Part shown: piece after piece, positions 4,035 to 23,799 of the stretch
Numbering within the stretch: the stretch's first letter is position 1
Layout: each line of letters begins with the position of its first letter
From: Lachnospiraceae bacterium
GTDB taxonomy: Bacteria; Bacillota; Clostridia; Lachnospirales; Lachnospiraceae
Assembly (NCBI GenBank): GCA_017428265.1
Contig: JAFRRD010000006.1
Location: 1-38,057 of the forward strand
DNA length: 38,057 bases
Direction of reading: 5' to 3'
The notes under the pieces: model-generated
What the model saw: only the letters and a program-made list of their open reading frames with translations
Database searches by the model: none
What the model was told of the DNA's origin: nothing
Translations under genes and position numbers: made by a program

Positions 4035-4916
4035 TTACTCCACTTCAACCAGTTCGTATTCGCGGGTCCCGAAGCCGAGTTTCGCGGCGGCTTCGAGGGT
4101 GTGTTCGCCGTGGCGGGAATGCACGCGCTCCAGGAAATGCTCGCGGCCGGGGTCGTCGGCGGCGTAGATCTTATCCATGCACGCCTGGTCGACCGCGATC
4201 GGGTCGAGGGAGGCCAGCACGCCGATGTCTGCCATGCAGGGATCCTCGGCTTCGTCGACGCAGTCGCAGTCCACGGAAAGGTTCTTCATGACGTTGATAT
4301 AGATCGCGCGGCCGCCGAAATAGTCCACGACGGACTTTGCGGCGTCGGCCATGCATTCGAGGAAACGGTCGCCGGCCATATGGCTCCAGACGATGTTTTG
4401 GTCGTCGGTGTAGCCCGCCGAATGGATGAGGCATTTGCCGGCCGTCGACGCGATGCCGATGGACAGCTGCTTCAGCGCGCCGCCGTAGCCGCCCGCCGGA
4501 TGGCCCTTGAAGTGGGAGAGGACGAGCAGGCTGTCGTAGTTCGCGAGGTTCTTCCCGACCAGGTTCTCCTTCAGGATCAGGCCGCCGTTAACGGGCAGGA
4601 CCATGTCGGGGCCTTCCGCGTCCATGAGGTCGAAGGGAAAGACCGTGTCCCAGCCGCGCCGGCGGATGAGCTCACGGTGCTTCGGTGTCGAATTGCGGGC
4701 GCCGGGATAGGCCGTGTTGCATTCGACGACGGTGCCGCCGGCTTCATCGATGACCGGCTTCCAGAATTCCGGCTTCAGGAAATTCTGGTTGCCCTCCTCG
4801 CCGGAGTGGATCTTGACGGCAAGTTTTTCGGAAGGGAGCGGGCCGAGCAGGCGGTAGAGCCTGAGCACGGCTTCGGGCGTGGCCGAGGGGATGAAATAGA
4901 CTTTTGCTTTTTCCAT
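4035..4916 (-). CDS. DUF362 domain protein
   Basis: 293 residues starting MEKAKVYFIPS; the ATG has AAGGA seven bases upstream, and a longer upstream extension of the frame is low-quality sequence. The DUF362 core is recognisable from SHFKGHPAGGYGGALKQL and from the C-terminal part with CDCVDEAEDPCMADIG and DPIAVDQACMDKIY. Many DUF362 proteins carry a 2[4Fe-4S] ferredoxin segment; none is seen here, only scattered cysteines. The biochemical role of the family is not established. The gene lies 94 nt after the P1 hydrolase gene and one base before the amidohydrolase gene. The 94-nt gap includes a 7-bp hairpin (arms 4971-4977 and 4984-4990) without a T-run, perhaps an mRNA processing or stability element. 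Confidence 0.85.
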   Translation of the reverse strand: MEKAKVYFIPSATPEAVLRLYRLLGPLPSEKLAVKIHSGEEGNQNFLKPEFWKPVIDEAGGTVVECNTAYPGARNSTPKHRELIRRRGWDTVFPFDLMDAEGPDMVLPVNGGLILKENLVGKNLANYDSLLVLSHFKGHPAGGYGGALKQLSIGIASTAGKCLIHSAGYTDDQNIVWSHMAGDRFLECMADAAKSVVDYFGGRAIYINVMKNLSVDCDCVDEAEDPCMADIGVLASLDPIAVDQACMDKIYAADDPGREHFLERVHSRHGEHTLEAAAKLGFGTREYELVEVE

Positions 4917-5010
4917 TGATGGATCCTTTCGTAAAAAGCACAGGGGGCCGTGCGAACGCAGCGTTTTGATGCCGGAATCGAGGTTCCGGCTGCCGGCGGC
5001 CGGTGCCGCG

Positions 5011-5988
5011 TCAGCGGGCTGCGATCTCTGCAGCCGAGGGATATCCGTAAGCGCTTTCCGCACTCATGACGGCGCGGAGAACGGCTTTTTCAAGGATCTC
5101 CGCGGCGAGCGTGCCGACGAGGTCCTGATCGGCTCTGACATCACCGACGGACAGGGCATAGATGCTGTCGCCGTCGGCCGAAGTGTGGACGGGGCGGATC
5201 GTGCGGGCGAAGCCGTCGTGGCCCATCCCCGCGATCTTGCAGAGGGCGGGTTTCTCGAAATACGCGTTCGTGACGACGACGCCGAGGGTGGTATTGCCGG
5301 TGAAGCGGTTCTCCGCAGGGGCCACGGACTCCCGCAGGACCTCGGAGGTGGAGCAAAGCTGCGTGCCGTCTTCGCTGAGGAGCCCCGCGATCTGCCGGCC
5401 CGTGTCCGGGTCGAAAATGTCGCCGAGCGCGTTGACGACAGCCACCGCGCCGACCTTCAGCTCACCGATTTCCAAAGCGCAGCTTCCGATGCCGCTTTTC
5501 ATGCAGCGGGCCATGCCGCGGATCTTCCCGACGGTCGCGCCGCAGCCGGCGCCGTAATTCCCGTCGCGGTAGTTCGGGGCTTCGAGGGCAAGCCGCGCGG
5601 CCTCATAGCCCATGGCGGCGTCCGGCCGCACGAAGGTATCGCCCACGGTCAGGTCAAAGAGGTCGGACTGCGCGACCAGCGGAACCTTCGTTACGCCGAC
5701 GTCGAAACCGATACCGCGCTCCTCGAGATACCGCATCACGCCGCCGGCCGCATCGAGACCGAAAGCGCTGCCGCCGCCGAGGACGACCGCGTGGATCGTC
5801 TGTGCCGCCGTGAGCGGGTCCAGCAGCTGGCTTTCCCGCGAGGCGGGGCCGCCGCCGCGCACGTCAAGACCCGCCCGCATGCCTTCCGGGCAGATAAATA
5901 CGGTCAGGCCGGTCCCGGCTGCCGCGTTTTCTGTCTGGCCGATCCGCAGGGGCGCAAGTTCACTGATCGGTATTTCCCGCGCTTCCAT
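5011..5988 (-). CDS. P1/S58 family self-processing hydrolase (NylC/DmpA-like)
   Basis: This 325-residue protein matches the P1 (DmpA/NylC) N-terminal-nucleophile family, whose members cut themselves into two chains and then hydrolyse short amides or peptides. Visible landmarks are the GGGSAFGLDAAGGV segment, GNYGAGCGATVGK, and GNTTLGVVVTNA, in which Asn232/Thr233 match the NylC-type cleavage and nucleophile position. The final conserved block is TIRPVHTSADGDSIYALS. The usual GAGTGA motif reads GAGCGA here. The start ATG abuts the stop of deoD with no gap, so the two are co-translated. Substrate is unknown; the PepT and carbamoylase neighbours favour peptide or amide degradation. Confidence 0.88.
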   Translation of the reverse strand: MEAREIPISELAPLRIGQTENAAAGTGLTVFICPEGMRAGLDVRGGGPASRESQLLDPLTAAQTIHAVVLGGGSAFGLDAAGGVMRYLEERGIGFDVGVTKVPLVAQSDLFDLTVGDTFVRPDAAMGYEAARLALEAPNYRDGNYGAGCGATVGKIRGMARCMKSGIGSCALEIGELKVGAVAVVNALGDIFDPDTGRQIAGLLSEDGTQLCSTSEVLRESVAPAENRFTGNTTLGVVVTNAYFEKPALCKIAGMGHDGFARTIRPVHTSADGDSIYALSVGDVRADQDLVGTLAAEILEKAVLRAVMSAESAYGYPSAAEIAAR

Positions 5989-11266: not shown

Positions 11267-13783
11267 TTATTCCTCTTTAGCTTTGGCCTTCTCTGCTTCT
11301 TCCGCTTTCTTTCTGGCTTTTTCCTGAGCCTTGCGGGCTTCTTCTCCGGCCTTCTGCTTTTCTTCGAGCAGCTTCTTCGCGGCCTTTTCCGCTTTTTCCG
11401 CCTCACGCTGCTCTTTATTTCCTTTGCTGCCGTCGGCGATCCGCGCAATGATCAGATAGAGCGCGACCGCGGCGATCGCTGCGGAAAGGGCAATGACGGC
11501 CGTCTTCGGGAAGCGCTTCGTATACTGCGCCGTATAGGAACTGTCGCCGAGGACCGTATAGATCTCACCGTCCTGCGCGACGGTCCCGTCCGATTTGTAC
11601 CAGTTCACAAAGTCGTAATTCTTCTTTTCGGATGCAGCCGGAAGGGTGACCGGCGTGCCGTAAACCTGCTGAATGTCCTGCGTGCCGCCTTCGCTGGTAA
11701 AGTGCAGGGTGTAGGTGTTGGGCGTCATCACGGCATTGACCTGCACGGTCAGCGGCTGCGCCGCGGTAATGAAGCTGGCGCCTCCCGCATAAGTGCTGCC
11801 GTCGGTGGTCTGCCAGAGATCGAAACTGTAGCCTTCTTTCTCGGGAACAGGAAGGTCCGGTGTCACCGATTTGGCCTCGACGCTCCGCCAGACGGCATTG
11901 TCAACAAGAAGCTGATAAGTCAGGCTGCCGCCGAAATTATCGCCGATGGCGTAGTTCCCGAGAACCTTGTCATAATAGGGAGAGAAGATCTCTTCGGCCA
12001 TTCCGTCGGGAAGCGGGAAGGCTTCGCGGAATGCCTCTTCCGGGACAACATGGGTAAATACGGCGGAGGGAACGTTGGGCATGTAACCTTCGGCCCGGGC
12101 AACTTCCGGCGCGGCGTAATAAGAATAGTTGTTGGCTTCGTCGGGCATGTCGTGGCGCGGGAAGGACAGACTGTTGCGCCGCAGCGAGGAGAATCTGTCG
12201 TCGATGATCACGGATGCCTTGGCTTCCACGAAAGGTGCATTCCAGATATCGCCGGGGACCTCTGTCCATTCGACCTTCGCGAGGGCTTCCGCAACAGCCT
12301 TTTCATAGGCTTCGTCGGCTGCTTTCTGGGCTTCCTCGGCCTTCTTTGCGGCTTCTTCAGCCTTCTTTGCGGCTTCTTCGGCCTTCTCGCTGTCTTCGGT
12401 GTTCCCCGTTCCTTCAGGTTCCGCGGCTTCCTCAGTCTCTTCAGGTTCCGCGGCTTCCTCAGTCTGTTCAGGTTCTGCGGCTTCCTCAGTCTCCTCAGGC
12501 TCTTCGTTCTGCGGCGTTTCGGCGGGCTGTTCCGGCTGGTACTTGCTGCGGTCGACTTCGGGATTGCTGTACGCCGTAAGCGTAGAGTTGTCGGCATAGG
12601 TGCAGAGCATCAGGCGGACAGTGAACGGCATTTCGTTTCCGTCGGCGCCGTCGGCGCAGATGCCGCCGTAGCCGTTGTAGGCCGTATTGCCGTAGAAGGA
12701 ACTGTTGATGATGTCGGCAGCGACTTCGCGGTCGGCACCGATGAACAGGCCGCCGCCGAATCCGGTCTCTGCCTTCAGGCCTTCTTCAAGGCCTTTGCGG
12801 AAGACGGAGGATGCGGCGCGGTTGCGGGCGATGATCCCGTTCAGGAAAATGAAATCGGTATTTTCAAGCGCAAGGCCGCCGCCCAGGGAAGCACTGCACT
12901 GCGTGACGGTGCAGCCGGTCATGAAAAGATCGGATTCGATGGCATAAATGGCACCGCCTTTTGTGCGGTCAGCGTATTCGACATAGCCGGCGACTTCGGC
13001 CTGTGCTTCATCTTCGGGTTCCGGCAGAAGATACTGGTGGCTGGCTTCATTGGCGCTGAAGCCGCAGCCGCTCAGTTTCAGGACAGCCGCTTCGGCATAG
13101 ATGGCGCCGCCGCCCCGGGAATCTTCCCTGTTGCCGGAAAAGTTGCCGTTGAACGCGCAGTTGTCAGCTGTGAACGTCACATTGTTCTTATCCGCCTGAC
13201 CGACCAGCAGGACAGCGCCGCCGCGGTCGCGGACAGCATTGCCGAGGAAAGAACAGTCAGAGGCCTGAATGTTCAGCTGCGCATCGGACTCCGAATAATC
13301 GGCGAAAAGGTTGGCGCCGGCAACGCTGACATAGTTGCGGAAAACACAGCCGGTCAGGAGGACGTCGGCATCGCCGCGGAAAGTCACAGCGGGCGGAAGC
13401 TCCTTCTCCTCATCCCAGAAGCTGTCCTCAATATTGGCGGCATCACCCGTGGAATAGAAAATGATGTTGTCGAACTGTACCGAAACTTTTCCGGCACTGC
13501 CGTCGATGACAAAAGTGCTGTCGAAGAAGGTCACCGAGCCCAGCTCTTTCTGGCTGCGCAGGGTGATGCTCTTCGCAATGACGATCGGTTCCGACAATGC
13601 ACTGAAATCAATATCGCCCACCAGAAGTTCGGCACCTTCGGCGGCGCTGCCGATCGCTGCCTGCAACTCATCTGCCGCAGCGATCCCGGCGGCAGCATGC
13701 GCGGACGCCGGCGAAACAAGACACAGTACCAGCCAAGCAGCGACGAGGGCTGTCCATAACTTTCTCAAGGAACAGGATTTCAT
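11267..13783 (-). CDS. Large surface protein: beta-helix, linker, InlB-type repeat, TM, charged cytoplasmic tail
   Basis: 838 residues. A signal peptide (about 1-31, ending ASAHAA) is followed by a right-handed beta-helix-like region (about 35-400) of repeats such as GGAIYA, GGGLALEN and GGGLFIGA with NSSFYGN-type turns. Next come nine-residue EPEETEEAA repeats, an AEEAAKK coiled coil, a globular region, and one or two Listeria-Bacteroides (InlB B-repeat) units with FVNWYKSDGT. A single membrane helix (about 755-780, ALSAAIAAVALYLIIARI) is followed by about 55 residues of Lys/Glu/Ala coiled coil with no LPXTG motif. Topology therefore puts the helix outside and a long coiled coil in the cytoplasm. 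A promoter and a GGGAG site precede the ATG. The ligand is unknown. Confidence 0.85.
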   Translation of the reverse strand: MKSCSLRKLWTALVAAWLVLCLVSPASAHAAAGIAAADELQAAIGSAAEGAELLVGDIDFSALSEPIVIAKSITLRSQKELGSVTFFDSTFVIDGSAGKVSVQFDNIIFYSTGDAANIEDSFWDEEKELPPAVTFRGDADVLLTGCVFRNYVSVAGANLFADYSESDAQLNIQASDCSFLGNAVRDRGGAVLLVGQADKNNVTFTADNCAFNGNFSGNREDSRGGGAIYAEAAVLKLSGCGFSANEASHQYLLPEPEDEAQAEVAGYVEYADRTKGGAIYAIESDLFMTGCTVTQCSASLGGGLALENTDFIFLNGIIARNRAASSVFRKGLEEGLKAETGFGGGLFIGADREVAADIINSSFYGNTAYNGYGGICADGADGNEMPFTVRLMLCTYADNSTLTAYSNPEVDRSKYQPEQPAETPQNEEPEETEEAAEPEQTEEAAEPEETEEAAEPEGTGNTEDSEKAEEAAKKAEEAAKKAEEAQKAADEAYEKAVAEALAKVEWTEVPGDIWNAPFVEAKASVIIDDRFSSLRRNSLSFPRHDMPDEANNYSYYAAPEVARAEGYMPNVPSAVFTHVVPEEAFREAFPLPDGMAEEIFSPYYDKVLGNYAIGDNFGGSLTYQLLVDNAVWRSVEAKSVTPDLPVPEKEGYSFDLWQTTDGSTYAGGASFITAAQPLTVQVNAVMTPNTYTLHFTSEGGTQDIQQVYGTPVTLPAASEKKNYDFVNWYKSDGTVAQDGEIYTVLGDSSYTAQYTKRFPKTAVIALSAAIAAVALYLIIARIADGSKGNKEQREAEKAEKAAKKLLEEKQKAGEEARKAQEKARKKAEEAEKAKAKEE
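12413..12493 (-). repeat. Three 27-nt tandem repeats inside the surface-protein gene
   Basis: Units 12413-12439, 12440-12466 and 12467-12493 are nearly identical and encode EPEETEEAA-type nonapeptides; a decayed fourth follows. 21-nt repeats encoding AEEAAKK lie just to the left. Such tracts readily change copy number by slippage, which would alter stalk length without breaking the frame. Confidence 0.8.
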
Positions 13784-15691: not shown

Positions 15692-18310
15692 ATGAAGAAA
15701 CTGACCGCTGCGCTGACGGCGCATGTCGACGCGGGCAAGACGACGCTGGCCGAGGCGCTGCTGCATGCCTGCGGCGCGGTCCGCAGCCCCGGCCGGGTGG
15801 ACCGGCAGACGGCGGCGATGGACCACGGCGCGCAGGAGAAAAAGCGCGGCATCACGATCTTTGCCGGCGAAGCCTCCCTGACGTGGAAAGGCGCCGGACT
15901 GGACCTTCTCGATACCCCCGGCCACGTCGATTTTTCCCCGGAAACGGAACGGGTGCTGGCGGCTGCGGACGCTGCGGTCCTGGTCATCAGCGGCCTGGAC
16001 GGCGTGCAGGCGCATACGCTTTCGCTGTGGAAACTGCTGGAAAAACGCGGCCTGCCGGTCATCCTTTTCGTGTCGAAGATGGACGCGGGGAGACGGAGCA
16101 AAGAGGAACTTCTCGAAGGGATCCGGCGCTCGCTTTCCGATACCTGCCTGCCGGCGGAGAGCATGCTTTCACCGGGCGAGGACGCCGCGATGCTCGACGA
16201 GGCGCTGCTGGAGCGCTATCTTGCCGGGGAGGCGCTGACGGAAGAAGACGGCCTCGACCTGATCCGGCGGCGGAGGGCGTTCCCGGTCATTTTCGGGAGC
16301 GGCCTTAAGGAAGAGGGCATCGGCACGCTGCTGGACCTTCTGGAAAAGCTCGCGCAGGAAACGGACGGCCTGCTTGACGGACCCTTCGCGGCGCGGGTCT
16401 ACAAGATCAGTTACGACGAAAAGGGAAACCGCCTGACGCATATGAAGTGCCTGTCCGGACGGCTCGCCCCGAGGGATGAGATCACGTATCCGGACGGCCG
16501 TCCGGCAGAGAAGGTCACACAGCTGCGGCGCTATACCGGCGGCCGCTTTGCGCAGGCGGATGAGCTTTCGGCGGGCGGCGTCGCCGTTGCCGCAGGCCTT
16601 GCGTACAGCCGCTGCGGCGATGCGTTCGGGACGGCTGTGAAAGCCGCCGCGGGCTTCTTTGAACCGGTCATGAGCTTCCATCTGGTCCTGCCGGAGGGAC
16701 TGGAGCCGGATCAGGCCATGCCTTCCCTGAAAAAACTGGAGGAAGAGGACCCGTCGCTGCATCTTCGCTACGATGCGGGGCTCGGCCTCATTTTTGCGGA
16801 CCTGATGGGGACCGTACAGGCCGAGGTGCTAACGGAAACGGTCCGGGAACGCTTCGGCTGGAGCATTTCGCTCGGAAAGGGCCGGATCCTGTATAAGGAA
16901 ACGCTGGCTGCGCCCGTCGAGGGCGTAGGCCACTACGAGCCGCTCCGCCACTATGCGGAGGTGCACCTCGCGCTCCGGCCCCTGCCGCGCGGCAGCGGGA
17001 TCGTGTATGCGGATGCGGATCGCGGGCAGTATCTGGCCGGCGACATGCGGCGGCTTATCCTCGGCCAGTTGGAGCAGATCCGGCACAGGGGCGTGCTGGC
17101 GGGGGGCGAACTGACGGACGTGCAGATCGTGCTCCTGGGCGGCCGCTATCACGAAAAGCACACGGAGGGCGGCGACTTCCGCGAGGCGGCAAGGCGGGCA
17201 GTCCGCCAGGGCCTCATGGAGGCCAAAAAGCAGGGCGCTGCCGTGCTCCTCGAACCCTATGTTTCCTTTGCGATCGCGGTGCCGCCGGAGAAGGCCGGAC
17301 GGGTCTTTGCCGATGTCCGCGCACGCGCCGGCGAAGCCGAGCCGGCCGGAGATGAAGAGGGCATGAACCTGATCCGGGGCCGTGCGCCGCTCGCCCTGAT
17401 GCAGGATTATGCGGCCGAACTGAGCGCTTTTACCGGCGGCCGGGGCCGCATGCGGAGCGCGGCGGACGGCTACGACCTCTGCCATGATACGGAGGCGGCC
17501 GTTGCCGAGGCCGCCTACGATCCGGTGGCCGACCGGGATAACCCGCCGGATTCCGTCTTCTGCCGGAACGGCGGAGGCTTCTCCGTCCCCTGGGACGAGG
17601 TCCCCGCATACATGCATCTGTCCTATCTGGCCTATCCGCCCGCGGGAAGACGAAGGGGAAATGCTGCCCCGGCGCCCGTCCCGCGCGGTGCGGCCAGCAG
17701 CGGGAAGGCAGTCGACGACGAACTGGAAGCCATCATGCTGCGCGAATTCGGCCCGATCAAGCGCCCGGTGCTGAGCACGGGAACGCAGGTGTGGAACGAA
17801 ACGGAATGGAAAGAACCGGTCGCCCTGGAGGGCCCGGCCGAATACATCGTCGACGGCTACAACCTCATTTTCGCCTGGCCGGAACTGAAAGAACTGTCGG
17901 AAAAGAGCCTGGACCTGGCCCGGGAACGCCTGGAGGGGTGGCTGCAGAGCTTTGCGGCCTTCACCGGGAGCCGCATCCTGCTGGTCTTCGACGGCTGGCG
18001 GGTCGCCGGCGGCACGGGCTCGGCCGAGGAGCGACTGCCCCTGTCCGTCGTCTATACCGCGGAAAACGAGACCGCGGACATGTACATCGAGCGGGAACTC
18101 GGCGAGCGCCTGGAAAAAGAACGGAAAAACATGCCGGCCGTGGTCTCGAACGACAACCTGATCCGCCTGTGCACGATCCGCCTCGGCGGGCTCCGCATCG
18201 ACTGCGAGAGTTTCGTAAAGATTTACGAAGAGGCGGCGGAGCGCCTGCGGAAGTTGAGCGGAGAGGAAAGAAGGCGGCTCGGCGCCCCGGTATTGCAGGA
18301 GGAACAATAA
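15692..18310 (+). CDS. TetM-like translation GTPase fused to a Rae1/YacP-type NYN nuclease domain
   Basis: 872 residues. The first 630 or so follow the EF-G/ribosomal-protection plan: P-loop AHVDAGKTT (10-18), switch RGITI, G3 DTPGHVDF, G4 SKMD (for NKxD), then domains II-V ([11 protein letters not shown] is in the domain IV region). After a Pro/Ala-rich linker comes an NYN (PF05991, YacP/Rae1) domain: [19 protein letters not shown] (Asp721, Asn724), LLVFDGW (Asp767), [10 protein letters not shown] (Glu793, Asp796) and a later SNDN motif. These are the acidic residues of a PIN-like metal site. In Bacillus subtilis, Rae1 enters the ribosomal A site and cuts mRNA. A strong GGAGG site precedes the ATG. 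Tetracycline protection is possible, but a fusion acting on stalled ribosomes is the more natural reading. Confidence 0.88.
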
Positions 18311-20635: not shown

Positions 20636-22312
20636 ATGGCTTACAAGTCCGACATCGAGATCGCACAGGCGTGCGAAAAGAAGAAGATCACCGAGATCGC
20701 GAAGATCGCAGGTGTTGACGAAAAGTACCTGGAACAGTACGGCAATTACAAGGCAAAAGTGGATTACCGCATGCTGAAGGATCTGGCGGACAGGCCGGAC
20801 GGCAAGCTGATCCTGGTCACGGCGATCACCCCGACCCCTGCCGGCGAGGGCAAGACCACGACGAGCGTGGGCCTGACCGACGGTCTCCGGAAGATCGGAA
20901 AGAACGCGGTCGTCGCGCTGCGCGAACCGTCTCTCGGCCCGGTGTTCGGGATCAAGGGCGGCGCGGCCGGCGGCGGTTATGCACAGGTCGTCCCGATGGA
21001 GGACATCAACCTGCATTTCACCGGTGACTTCCACGCGATCGGCGCGGCGAACAACCTGCTTGCCGCGATGCTGGACAACCACATCCAGCAGGGCAATGAG
21101 CTCGGCATCGACCCGAAGCGCATCACCTGGAAACGTGCGGTCGACATGAACGACCGGCAGCTGCGTCAGATCGTCGACGGCCTCGGCGGCCGGATGCAGG
21201 GCGTTCCGCGTGAGGACGGCTTCGAAATCACCGTGGCGAGCGAGGTCATGGCGGTGCTGTGCCTGGCGAGCGACATCCCGGATCTGAAGAAACGGCTCGG
21301 CAGCATCATCGTCGGCTACACCTACCAGGGTAAGCCGGTGACGGCACACGACCTGAAGGCCGAAGGCGCCATGGCGGCCCTGCTGAAGGATGCCCTGAAG
21401 CCCAACCTGGTCCAGACCCTGGAGGGCACGCCCGCGTTCATCCACGGCGGTCCCTTTGCCAATATCGCGCACGGCTGCAACTCCGTGACGGCCACCCGCA
21501 TGGCAATGAAGCTGGCGGATTACGCCGTGACCGAGGCCGGCTTCGCCGCCGACCTGGGCGCCGAGAAATTCTTCGACATCAAGTGCCGCCTGGCGGGGCT
21601 TACCCCCTCCGCGGTGGTCGTCGTGGCCACGGTCCGCGCCCTGAAATACCACGGCGGCGTGCCGAAGGCCGAGCTGAACAATGAGAACCTGGAAGCCCTG
21701 GAAAAGGGCCTGCCGAACCTGCTGCAGCACGTCGGCAACATCAAAAACGTCTACGGCCTGCCCTGCGTGGTCGCGATCAACGCCTTCCCGACCGATACGA
21801 AGGCCGAACTGGACCTGGTCGAAGAAAAGTGCAAAGAACTCGGCGTCAACGTGGCCCTGTCCGAAGTCTGGGCGAAGGGCGGCGAGGGCGGCATGGCCCT
21901 GGCCGAAGAGGTCGTCCGTCTCTGCGAGCAGCCGGGACATTTCACCCCGTCCTACGAACTGGATCTGCCGATCCGCGACAAGCTGAACGCGATCGCGACG
22001 AGGATCTACCACGCGGACGGCGTCGACCTGGTCGGCAATGCGATCAAGCAGGAAAAGGAGATCGAAGCCATGGGCTGCGGCGGCCTGCCGATCTGCATGG
22101 CGAAGACACAATACAGCTTCTCGGACGATCCGGCCAAACTGGGCGCGCCGAAGGGCTTCCGCGTCACGGTCCGCAACCTCAAGGTCTGCGGCGGCGCCGG
22201 TTTCATCGTGGCCCTGACCGGTGACATCATGACCATGCCGGGCCTGCCGAAGGTCCCGGCTGCCGAGAAGATCGACGTCGACGAAAACGGCGTGATCTCC
22301 GGCCTGTTCTGA
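20636..22312 (+). CDS. fhs: Formate--tetrahydrofolate ligase
   Basis: 558 residues, the usual length. It makes 10-formyl-THF from formate, ATP and THF, the entry step of the folate one-carbon (methyl) branch. Landmarks: P-loop [14 protein letters not shown] (residues 64-77), [32 protein letters not shown], the [10 protein letters not shown] block, [17 protein letters not shown], and [18 protein letters not shown] at the end. A good AAGGAG site precedes the ATG. It heads the operon with fchA, folD, the 5-formyl-THF cyclo-ligase gene and an iron-sulfur flavoprotein gene. No methylene-THF reductase or CO dehydrogenase is seen in this window, so the operon supports folate one-carbon flow without proving acetogenesis. 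Confidence 0.97.
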
Positions 22313-22321
22313 GGAAGGAAA

Positions 22322-22939
22322 ATGGAACTGTTAAACAGCACTGTTGCTGAATTTACCGAGTCGCTTGCTTCCAAGGCCCCCGTTCCCGGGGGCGGCGGGG
22401 CAAGCGCTCTTGTTGGAGCGGTCGGCATCGCGCTCGGCGATATGGTCGGCGAGTTTACGGTCGGCAAGAAGCGCTATGCGGACGTGGAAGAGGAGATGAA
22501 GGCGCTGATGGAGAAGGCGCAGGACCTGCGCGTGAAGCTCCTTGCCTGCATCGAAAAGGACGCGGCGGCCTTTGAGCCGCTGTCCCGCGCCTACGCGATC
22601 CCGAAGGACGCGCCGGAGCGGGAGAAGGTCATGGAGGAATGCCTGCGGGCCGCCGCAGCGCCGCCGTTCGAGATCCTGGGCCTTTGCGGCGAAGCGATCG
22701 ACCTGCTGCAGGCATTTGCCGAAAAAGGCAGCGTGATCGTGCTGTCCGACGCAGCCTGCGGCGCGGCCTTCTGCCGGAGCGCCATGCAGGGCGCCGCGGT
22801 GAACATCCTCATCAATACGAAATCGATGCGCGACCGTGACTATGCCGGGGCGCTGGACGCGAAGACCGAAGAACTGCTCGCGCAATATCTTCCGCTGGCG
22901 GAAGAGATCTACAATAAAGTGACGGAGAGGATCGGCTGA
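22322..22939 (+). CDS. fchA: Methenyl-THF cyclohydrolase (FchA family)
   Basis: 205 residues of the cyclodeaminase/cyclohydrolase family (FchA, and the C-terminal domain of FTCD). The signature ASKAPVPGGGGASALVGAVGIAL (here residues about 16-38) is the glycine-rich folate-binding segment, followed by the long helices typical of the family. It converts 5,10-methenyl-THF and 10-formyl-THF into each other; deaminase activity on formimino-THF is possible but no histidine-degradation gene is nearby. It lies 9 nt after fhs with AGGAAGG at the junction, and its TGA overlaps the folD ATG by one base. Its presence explains the altered FolD next door. Confidence 0.9.
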   Translation: MELLNSTVAEFTESLASKAPVPGGGGASALVGAVGIALGDMVGEFTVGKKRYADVEEEMKALMEKAQDLRVKLLACIEKDAAAFEPLSRAYAIPKDAPEREKVMEECLRAAAAPPFEILGLCGEAIDLLQAFAEKGSVIVLSDAACGAAFCRSAMQGAAVNILINTKSMRDRDYAGALDAKTEELLAQYLPLAEEIYNKVTERIG

Positions 22940-23799
22940 TGGCAATACTTCTGAAGGGGGCGCCGGCTGCGGCTGTCCTGAACGAACAGACTGCGGCGAA
23001 ATGCGCCGCACTGAAGGAAAAAGGAATCGTTCCCACACTGGCCATCCTGCGCGTCGGCGCGCGGGACGGGGATCTGAGTTACGAACGCGGCGCGATGAAG
23101 CGCTGTGACCAGCTCGGCGTGGAGGTAAAGCGCATCGTTCTGCCGGCGGACGTGGAGAGAGACGTCTTCTTCGCGACGCTCGAATCGCTGAACCGCGACG
23201 AAACGCTCCACGGGATCCTCATGCTCCGGCCGCTGCCGAAGCATCTGGACGGTGAGAGAGCGCGGAAGATGCTCGCACCGGAAAAGGACGTCGACGGCTG
23301 CACGGACGGCTCGCTTGCCGGCGTGTTCACCAACACGGCGCTCGGTTTTCCGCCTTGCACCGCCCAGGCCGCGATGGAGATCCTGAAATACTACAAAATC
23401 CCGCTGTCCGGAAAGCGTGCCGCCGTGATCGGCCGGAGCCTCGTAGTCGGCCGGCCTGCCGCGATGATGCTGATGCATGAAAATGCGACCGTGACGGTCT
23501 GCCATACCAGGACCGTCGACCTTCCGTCCGTCGTCCGCGAAGCCGATATCGTGATCGCAGCCTCCGGGCAGATGGAAAGCCTCGGCGTAGAGTGCCTGCG
23601 CGAAGGCCAGACCGTGGTCGACGTCGGCATCAGCTGGAATGAGGCGAAGCAGAAACTCTGCGGCGACGTCCTCTTTGAGGAGGCGGAGCCGCTTGTCGCG
23701 GCGATCACGCCCGTCCCCGGCGGCGTCGGCGCCGTGACGACGAGCGTGCTGGTTTCCCACGTTGTTGAGGCGGCGAAGCGGGCCGCGGAGTGCACATGA
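22939..23799 (+). CDS. folD: Methylene-THF dehydrogenase, FolD family, probably without cyclohydrolase activity
   Basis: 286 residues with the FolD fold: LRVGARDGDLSYERGAMKRC, HGILMLRPLPKHLD, EKDVDGCTDG, PPCTAQAAMEIL, the NAD(P) loop VIGRSLVVGRPAAMML, and the C-terminal ITPVPGGVGAVTTSVL. It oxidises 5,10-methylene-THF to methenyl-THF. In bifunctional FolD the cyclohydrolase step uses the Lys of a YVxxK motif (Lys56 in the human enzyme). Here Tyr48 is kept, but the aligned position four residues on is Ala52 (YERGA). This matches loss of cyclohydrolase activity, with FchA taking over. A lysine two residues later (Lys54) cannot be wholly excluded as a substitute. It overlaps fchA and the following gene in TGATG/ATGA fashion. 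Confidence 0.93.
   Translation: MAILLKGAPAAAVLNEQTAAKCAALKEKGIVPTLAILRVGARDGDLSYERGAMKRCDQLGVEVKRIVLPADVERDVFFATLESLNRDETLHGILMLRPLPKHLDGERARKMLAPEKDVDGCTDGSLAGVFTNTALGFPPCTAQAAMEILKYYKIPLSGKRAAVIGRSLVVGRPAAMMLMHENATVTVCHTRTVDLPSVVREADIVIAASGQMESLGVECLREGQTVVDVGISWNEAKQKLCGDVLFEEAEPLVAAITPVPGGVGAVTTSVLVSHVVEAAKRAAECT

Follow-up and report, generated by a model that had tools for sequence, protein, structure and literature searches.

A translational GTPase fused to a Rae1-like nuclease in Lachnospiraceae as a likely replacement for separate Rae1

Why would an EF-G-like translational GTPase carry at its end a nuclease of the kind that cuts mRNA in the ribosomal A site, and what becomes of the separate nuclease in bacteria that have the joined form? 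The question is raised by a stretch of 38,057 nucleotides from a Lachnospiraceae bacterium (GenBank assembly GCA_017428265.1, contig JAFRRD010000006.1, positions 1 to 38,057 of the forward strand), here called the window, in which one gene encodes such a GTPase followed by a linker and an NYN domain like that of Rae1 (YacP). According to reports cited in PMC12320835 and PMC6613710, the Rae1 protein of Bacillus subtilis cleaves mRNA in the A site; loss of rae1 or of yacO, an rlmB homologue, suppresses an efp defect (PMC6613710). As the first-pass annotation of this DNA had guessed, the fusion was already known as sequence: Tet proteins of ten Clostridiales species have been described as having acquired a YacP-like NYN RNase domain, perhaps as a new resistance mechanism (Atkinson 2015, PMC4342817), and these are almost surely the same proteins as the present fusion. 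No further paper on a GTPase-Rae1 fusion was found in the literature searched, subscription papers being outside its coverage. Our favored reading, to which we give a probability of roughly 0.6, is that of a GTPase-tethered Rae1: the fused gene would have spread, taken over the job of separate rae1, and come to deliver an mRNA cutter to paused ribosomes in a GTP-dependent manner. New here are the placing of the GTPase in a sister subfamily with a tip of its own, the repeated switching between fused and separate states, and the absence of separate rae1 from nearly all fused genomes; the consulted text of the 2015 account mentions neither Rae1 replacement nor unfused orthologues nor a non-Tet signature.

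The joined architecture proposed in the first-pass annotation is confirmed by the Pfam domains of a single 872-residue open reading frame (ORF; Table 1). The nuclease, which had been called closest to Rae1/YacP, belongs to that family (NYN_YacP, PF05991, 107.2 bits against a curated cutoff of 24.6), and a sequence comparison of the NYN part with the PDB matched only YacP/Rae1 (5mq8/5mq9, E = 2 × 10−15), the next match having an E value of 0.3. It shares with B. subtilis Rae1 the NYN domain, the active-site residues, the usual single copy per genome, and apparently the cellular role; Rae1, in contrast, is a free protein of about 170 to 200 residues usually encoded between rlmB and sigH, whereas the fusion places the domain at the C terminus of a GTPase encoded elsewhere. 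The GTPase has the G1, G3, and G4 motifs as well as domains IV and V and is thus an EF-G-like GTPase, and its P-loop, AHVDAGKT, is intact, as had been claimed. Domain IV is the part that enters the decoding center in EF-G and Tet proteins, and domains IV and V of the EF-G type work on assembled ribosomes in known relatives. An AlphaFold2 model built from 64 aligned sequences (the window protein and 63 relatives, alignment A4, which took 63 of the 64 full-length proteins of the 80-locus set described below, the overlong L162 being omitted) had a mean predicted local distance difference test score (pLDDT) of 85 and a predicted template modeling score of 0.64 and contained two confident modules; the linker between them was of low confidence at residues 654 to 673 and 690 to 712, with a helix (672 to 686) between these parts. 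The predicted folds of both modules are assigned on sequence together with model confidence.

We next looked at how well the two halves are conserved, using 119 loci made up of a 39-locus set and an 80-locus set, the latter found by the patterns GH[FY]EPLRH or A[EQ]TADx[YF]IE; loci from genome searches are best matches and not a random draw. Asp721, Asn724, Asp767, Asp796, and Asp821 were present at 119 of 119 loci, these residues not having been used as a filter (the second pattern does favor Asp796), and Tyr723 was present at 117. Position 791 was Glu at 100 loci, and position 793 was Glu at 96 and Gln at 23 (22 and 17 in the 39-locus set, 74 and 6 in the 80-locus set). The active site listed earlier (Asp721, Asp767, Glu793, and Asp796) is therefore present in the window protein as stated, but residue 793 is not invariant, and the conserved set also includes Asp821 and Asn724. 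Common loss of the catalytic residues among homologues, which the first-pass annotation had named as evidence that would speak against it, was not seen, and the homologues keep both parts: the NYN domain lies in a frame of more than 750 residues at 39 of 39 loci of the first set and 75 of 80 of the second (the remaining five frames, 232 to 619 residues long, are cut or broken), so the fusion is no assembly artifact. A strict full-length ORF pattern fitted 34 of 39 and 64 of 80 loci, the former chosen by a P-loop pattern with a nearby start and the latter by a P-loop pattern plus DGYN; in the resulting set of 99 proteins Asp721, Tyr723, Asn724, His11, and Lys16 are partly fixed by these selection patterns. 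Within it, Thr17, Lys129, and Asp131 occurred in 99 of 99 proteins and the switch-II residue His78 in 98, while His11 and Lys16 were also found in all 99, the rows having been picked by the P-loop pattern. The first position of G4 was Asn in 70, Thr in 26, and Ser in 3, the window protein having SKMD instead of NKMD. The window protein is diverged (37 to 44% identity to the other members in alignment A2); its nearest relative, L132 from an uncultured Lachnospiraceae metagenome-assembled genome (MAG), is 73% identical over the whole protein. Between these two, the ratio of nonsynonymous to synonymous substitution rates was 0.18 for the entire protein and 0.25 for the NYN part, indicating that the latter is under purifying selection. 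Both halves of the fusion thus look to be maintained by selection.

We then asked which genomes carry the fusion and which carry a separate rae1. The source genome (2.16 Mb, 95% complete) has a single Rae1 domain, the fused one. In its family, sampled at one genome per genus, 131 of 145 genomes have a Rae1 domain, which by frame length alone falls in frames of at least 800 residues in 115 genomes and of 174 to 214 residues in 10, with 6 frames of 260 to 735 residues left unclassified. Both profiles were run against a sample of 147 genomes from the order, for which GTPase counts are lower bounds: 52 were fused, 19 had an unfused GTPase together with a separate Rae1, 61 had a separate Rae1 with no GTPase match, 14 had neither, and 1 was unclear (G084, in which the GTPase is cut by a contig end). 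The 52 include three cut or partial cases, namely G039 (counted by a 523-residue frame alone, with no GTPase match), G148 (in two frames), and G171 (cut by a contig end). An intact separate rae1 was lacking in 50 of the 52 fused genomes (Fisher test, P value = 1 × 10−23, kinship being ignored), and the unfused GTPase was accompanied by a separate Rae1 in 19 of 19 genomes. In a sample of 199 genomes from the phylum, 12 were fused and had one Rae1 match apiece; the sample also contained one close unfused orthologue (G604), whose genome has a separate Rae1.

The usual position of the separate gene provides a second line of evidence. Of 37 loci with separate rae1, 26 had it flanked by rlmB and sigH. 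Among the remaining 11, two of which lay on short stretches, 5 showed sigH only, 2 rlmB only, and 4 neither. In the window's own family, 6 of 8 separate rae1 genes (7 of the 10 small frames plus the gene of G093) adjoin rlmB. The fused gene of the window lies beside trpS, outside this slot, and so does not take the usual, if not strictly defining, Rae1 position. A search around rlmB in 20 fused genomes with eight Rae1 queries found neither rae1 nor a remnant of it at an E value of ≤0.01; sigH lay within 350 bp of rlmB in 16 of these, and in the other four (G000, G026, G001, and G080) no sigH was found within the stretch around rlmB. In genus g68, two genomes (G171 and G197) carry the fusion and also the order cysS-mrnC-rlmB-rae1-sigH with an intact rae1 of 177 codons, while a third (G050) carries the fusion and a broken rae1 in the same slot, the DNA of the region being about 81% identical. 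In G021, a fused genome of another family, about 30 codons of the first part of rae1 are left in the slot. In genus g109, the rlmB and sigH matches of the fused G153 are 36 bp apart, and G161 and G285 keep rae1 there. As an intact separate rae1 is missing from all but two of the 52 fused genomes and decayed remnants occupy its slot in two others, the fusion most likely does Rae1's job; these sequence data support functional replacement of Rae1 by the fusion together with lasting selection on both active sites.

Trees of three genes bear on how often this happened. On an RlmB tree of 57 loci, the fused and separate states required 12 switches (mean for shuffled states, 18.5), of which at least 6 fell on strongly supported (starred) branches; we use the figure of at least 6 because weak RlmB branches may inflate the 12. 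In a GTPase tree of 60 sequences, the 37 fused proteins formed one clade (Shimodaira-Hasegawa-like approximate likelihood ratio test, 100) nested among unfused relatives, and a single origin of the fused NYN domain was not rejected by an approximately unbiased (AU) test from which five long rows (the window, L089, L090, L091, and L098) were left out (p-AU = 0.51). The simplest reading of the sequences is one fusion event, horizontal spread, and repeated loss of a redundant free rae1. The opposite course, fission, was rejected, as the separate rae1 genes found away from the slot in G093 and G348 show no GTPase match in stretches of 9.5 to 10 kb at an E value of ≤1 × 10−3. These two genes (L292 in G093, 4790 to 5308; L293 in G348, 4734 to 5249) lie away from rlmB, and L016, L019, and L042, which are the same genes or their close kin, fall near fused domains in the NYN tree; a fused copy, or else the donor of the fusion, might be the ancestor of separate genes of this type. 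In one fused 1,095-residue frame (L110/L105, from G415 C47), the NYN domain gave two separate matches with overlapping profile positions (1 to 65 and 51 to 146), as if it were partly duplicated.

Several observations weigh against the tethered Rae1 that we favor. Two of the 52 fused genomes, of the same genus, hold an intact separate rae1 as well, so exclusion is not absolute, and the function can be dispensed with, as no Rae1 is seen in 14 of the 147 order genomes. Six of the 20 rlmB-sigH intervals measure 177 to 345 bp and could conceal a short, unrecognizable remnant. The RlmB tree is that of a single gene, not of the species, and has long branches that come together; in the NYN trees, fused and separate forms are not cleanly divided. 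The link between unfused GTPase and Rae1 is by itself not significant (19 of 19 genomes versus 61 of 75, P value = 0.065), and the GTPase searches scored no more than the 6 or 8 best candidates of each genome at an E value of ≤1 × 10−110, by which unfused relatives may be missed. Lastly, we infer ribosome binding, GTP hydrolysis, and RNA cleavage by the fusion from what is known of the two families.

A role in ribosome rescue or mRNA surveillance, as the first-pass annotation had it, gains indirect support from the apparent repeated replacement of Rae1 and from one neighbor. A YlmH-like gene lies directly downstream of the fusion at 7 of 64 loci, overlapping it in five and standing 70 and 123 bases off in two; one of the seven proteins, compared with Pfam, scored above the cutoff for YlmH_RBD and just below it for S4. 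In B. subtilis, YlmH acts in ribosome-associated quality control (PMC11317155). Counting against this support, all seven loci are in Oscillospiraceae- or Ruminococcaceae-labeled MAGs, and the link is confined to that Oscillospiraceae type and does not occur in this window.

The replacement of Rae1 could also have come about without any mechanistic coupling, the NYN domain acting as an ordinary Rae1 and the GTPase working separately, so that fusion brings no more than coexpression and local concentration. We consider this unlikely, while recognizing that a good deal is compatible with it: the linker is long and of low confidence in the AlphaFold2 model, the GTPase exists as a free protein in its unfused form, and 61 of the 80 genomes with a separate Rae1 show no such GTPase, so that Rae1 needs none. 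However, a single fused clade occurs in place of separate rae1 in many lineages, suggesting an advantage of the tether, and two linker residues are conserved among the full-length proteins (Glu677 in 94 of 99 and Ile681 in 92 of 99).

The identity of the GTPase bears on a further question, since the best NCBIfam match of the window protein is tet_protect (NF012153), and the first-pass annotation had spoken of a TetM-type GTPase and of a drug response. The Tet label does not hold in the strict sense. The window protein scored 353.8 bits against a cutoff of 775, and the controls Tet(M) (L264) and Tet(W) (L265) scored 868 and 852 bits. Although Tet(M), Tet(O), and Tet(W) have the same EF-G-like build and are about 27 to 30% identical to the window protein, they differ from the fusion in the domain IV tip loop (SPVSTPADFR versus KHTEGGDFR; EF-G differs again), in loop I (PPNPFWAS in TetM, TetW, and TetO), and in the C-terminal end, and in the 60-sequence tree they form a clade of their own apart from it. 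That tree was built by a quick method with the window as a long branch, and Tet(Q), OtrA, and others stood outside it (pae_L257 was kept in place of its duplicate pae_L126). The pattern KHT[ESP]GGDFR occurred in 87 of 99 fused proteins. We aligned 15 unfused relatives of 639 to 672 residues (L242 to L256), from the same order except for one from elsewhere in the phylum; these belong to the same subfamily and stop where the linker begins, all 15 ending within 0 to 4 residues of window residue 645. Where inspected, they share with the fused proteins a loop I that departs little from GHFEPL..HYAEV and the tip KHT[ES]GGDFR, which reads HTHGGDFR in the most distant (L255). A more distant unfused protein, LSL_RS10690 of Ligilactobacillus salivarius pMP118, shares about 40% identity with the window protein and has the tip VHTVGGDFR. 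These comparisons, made on sequence, place the protein with EF-G/Tet-class ribosome factors in its build but outside the Tet family by score, tip loop, and tree, and they indicate that its GTPase is a sister subfamily of Tet(M/O/W), with its own decoding-center tip, which also exists unfused. As a separate observation, the unfused GTPases L257/L126 (G448) and L127 (G490), 659 to 662 residues long, are closer to Tet by score (L126, 602 bits against the cutoff of 775; tip of L257, HTHPLDFA) and perhaps form a third, unnamed subfamily.

It is against this background that ribosome-protection drug resistance with an added RNase, the reading of Atkinson 2015, appears very improbable. In its favor are the relation to Tet/OtrA proteins and the names given to some members in public annotation, since, as had been anticipated, homologues are filed under a resistance label (L263, from an Agathobacter rectalis plasmid record, and L262, from L. 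salivarius pMP118, are annotated as TetM/TetW/TetO/TetS family tetracycline resistance proteins); such labels on members of the non-Tet group could inflate resistance counts. The family score, the tip loop, and the separate clade speak against it. Moreover, the fusion shares genomes with Tet-type genes proper, in G493 with one that has the SPVSTPADFR tip (L130) and in G005 and G153 with genes judged by length and score only, and it is present in most sampled genera of the family, to go by the 115 of 145 long frames. No neighbor gene was common to more than 8 of 64 loci, and a fixed gene neighborhood was rejected on the same count. Neither the drug-resistance reading nor the drug-response part of the earlier hypothesis is therefore supported.

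We see hardly any room for a nuclease that matures or degrades stable RNA (rRNA or tRNA) beside a GTPase acting in ribosome assembly: rRNA/tRNA maturation was an early proposal for the YacP-type NYN domain (cited in PMC4342817) and separate rae1 adjoins rlmB and lies near mrnC, both rRNA related, but B. subtilis Rae1 is reported to cut A-site mRNA (PMC12320835 and PMC6613710) and the GTPase keeps the EF-G-like domains IV and V.

Returning to the GTPase-tethered Rae1, we can outline how it might work. A non-Tet, EF-G-like, ribosome-binding GTPase would once have gained a Rae1 nuclease at its C terminus. In its GTP form, the protein would bind, at the factor site, a ribosome that has paused or stalled with its A site idle and would place domain IV, with its KHTEGGDFR tip, in the decoding center, where it would inspect or clear the A site. 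After GTP hydrolysis, domain IV would withdraw or the A site would be remodeled, and the NYN domain, kept near by some 70 residues of flexible linker, would enter the freed A site and cut the mRNA, readying the ribosome for rescue. Sequential action is expected because the A site should not have room for domain IV and the nuclease at one time. By our estimate, the linker when fully extended could span well over 100 Å and so need not limit reach to the A site. We infer the order of these steps, like the role of the unfused GTPase, purely by reasoning. More tentative still, and in our view rather doubtful, is a full GTP-driven surveillance machine in which A-site inspection and hydrolysis are coupled to mRNA cutting and feed rescue and quality control (in some species together with YlmH), the fused gene being a mobile upgrade that makes free Rae1 redundant. 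RelE-type A-site nucleases and the collision nucleases SmrB and MutS2 likewise cut mRNA on, or act on, stalled ribosomes; they belong to nuclease families other than that of Rae1 and are not known to carry a translational GTPase.

Table 1. Positions in the window of the fused gene, its domains, and its nuclease residues
Feature	Position	Strand	Basis
Whole fused gene: translational GTPase, linker, and Rae1-like NYN nuclease; 872 residues, ATG start	15692..18310	+	ORF and homologous fusions
G domain, residues 6-222; P-loop AHVDAGKT, G4 SKMD	15707..16357	+	Pfam GTP_EFTU, 1.3e-45
EF-G-like domains II and III, residues 231-395	16382..16876	+	Pfam matches below cutoff; model confidence high
Domain IV, residues 397-512	16880..17227	+	Pfam EFG_IV, 2.5e-16
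Domain IV tip loop KHTEGGDFR, residues 489-497; subfamily signature	17156..17182	+	Alignment with relatives
Domain V, residues 518-599	17243..17488	+	Pfam EFG_C, 2.3e-14
C-terminal extension of GTPase, residues 600-645; end point of unfused relatives	17489..17626	+	Alignment
Linker, residues 646-717; one predicted helix, 672-686	17627..17842	+	AlphaFold2 model
NYN_YacP (Rae1-like) nuclease domain, residues 719-859	17846..18268	+	Pfam, 1.2e-30; PDB 5mq8; pLDDT 76-96 in ten-residue blocks
Asp721 (aligned with Rae1 D7)	17852..17854	+	119/119 loci
Asp767 (Rae1 D53)	17990..17992	+	119/119 loci
Asp796 (Rae1 D81)	18077..18079	+	119/119 loci
Asp821 (Rae1 D104); absent from the first-pass list	18152..18154	+	119/119 loci

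In the window, the fused gene is divergent from trpS and is followed by an acyltransferase-like gene on the other strand, then by an RraA-like gene and a folate/one-carbon cluster (20636 to 23799, plus strand) encoding a formate-tetrahydrofolate ligase, an FTCD_C-type cyclodeaminase, and a FolD-type protein. An RNA leader or attenuator was considered and rejected: an Rfam scan of the window gave no match, and no promoter-like consensus sites were found between 15500 and 18600. An 838-residue ORF on the minus strand (11267 to 13783), with a Listeria-Bacteroides repeat (Flg_new) near its C terminus, is perhaps a surface protein; an ORF of 839 residues is open on the opposite strand across nearly all of it. 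An anti-phage defense role for the fusion was rejected, PADLOC giving a single weak match for the window protein (LeoA, 7 × 10−6) and none for L054. A mobile phage gene was rejected as well: the two "Bacteriophage sp." records that contain the fusion, L300 (MT835514) and L301 (MT835563), are UNVERIFIED scaffolds whose scanned ORFs look bacterial rather than viral, and they are probably misfiled as phage. Five ORFs were scanned in each, out of 21 in L300 and 16 in L301; they corresponded in L300 to rsmH/MraW, a glutamyl-tRNA-synthetase-type protein, a Csp-type protease, a sugar kinase, and a ZIP transporter and in L301 to a solute-binding protein, a peptidoglycan-binding protein, a helix-turn-helix protein, and two proteins without a match.

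On the questions of how Rae1 finds paused ribosomes and which state of the A site it needs, a natural fusion that stands in for free Rae1 in many lineages points to a translational GTPase as a suitable partner, and a single protein lets GTP dependence, ribosome binding, and cutting be studied together. If the surveillance-machine reading is true, a separate GTPase from this unnamed subfamily may likewise act as a partner of Rae1 in other bacteria. Furthermore, some proteins of gut bacteria that are now filed as tetracycline resistance may be housekeeping factors, which bears on the resistance counts made from metagenomes.

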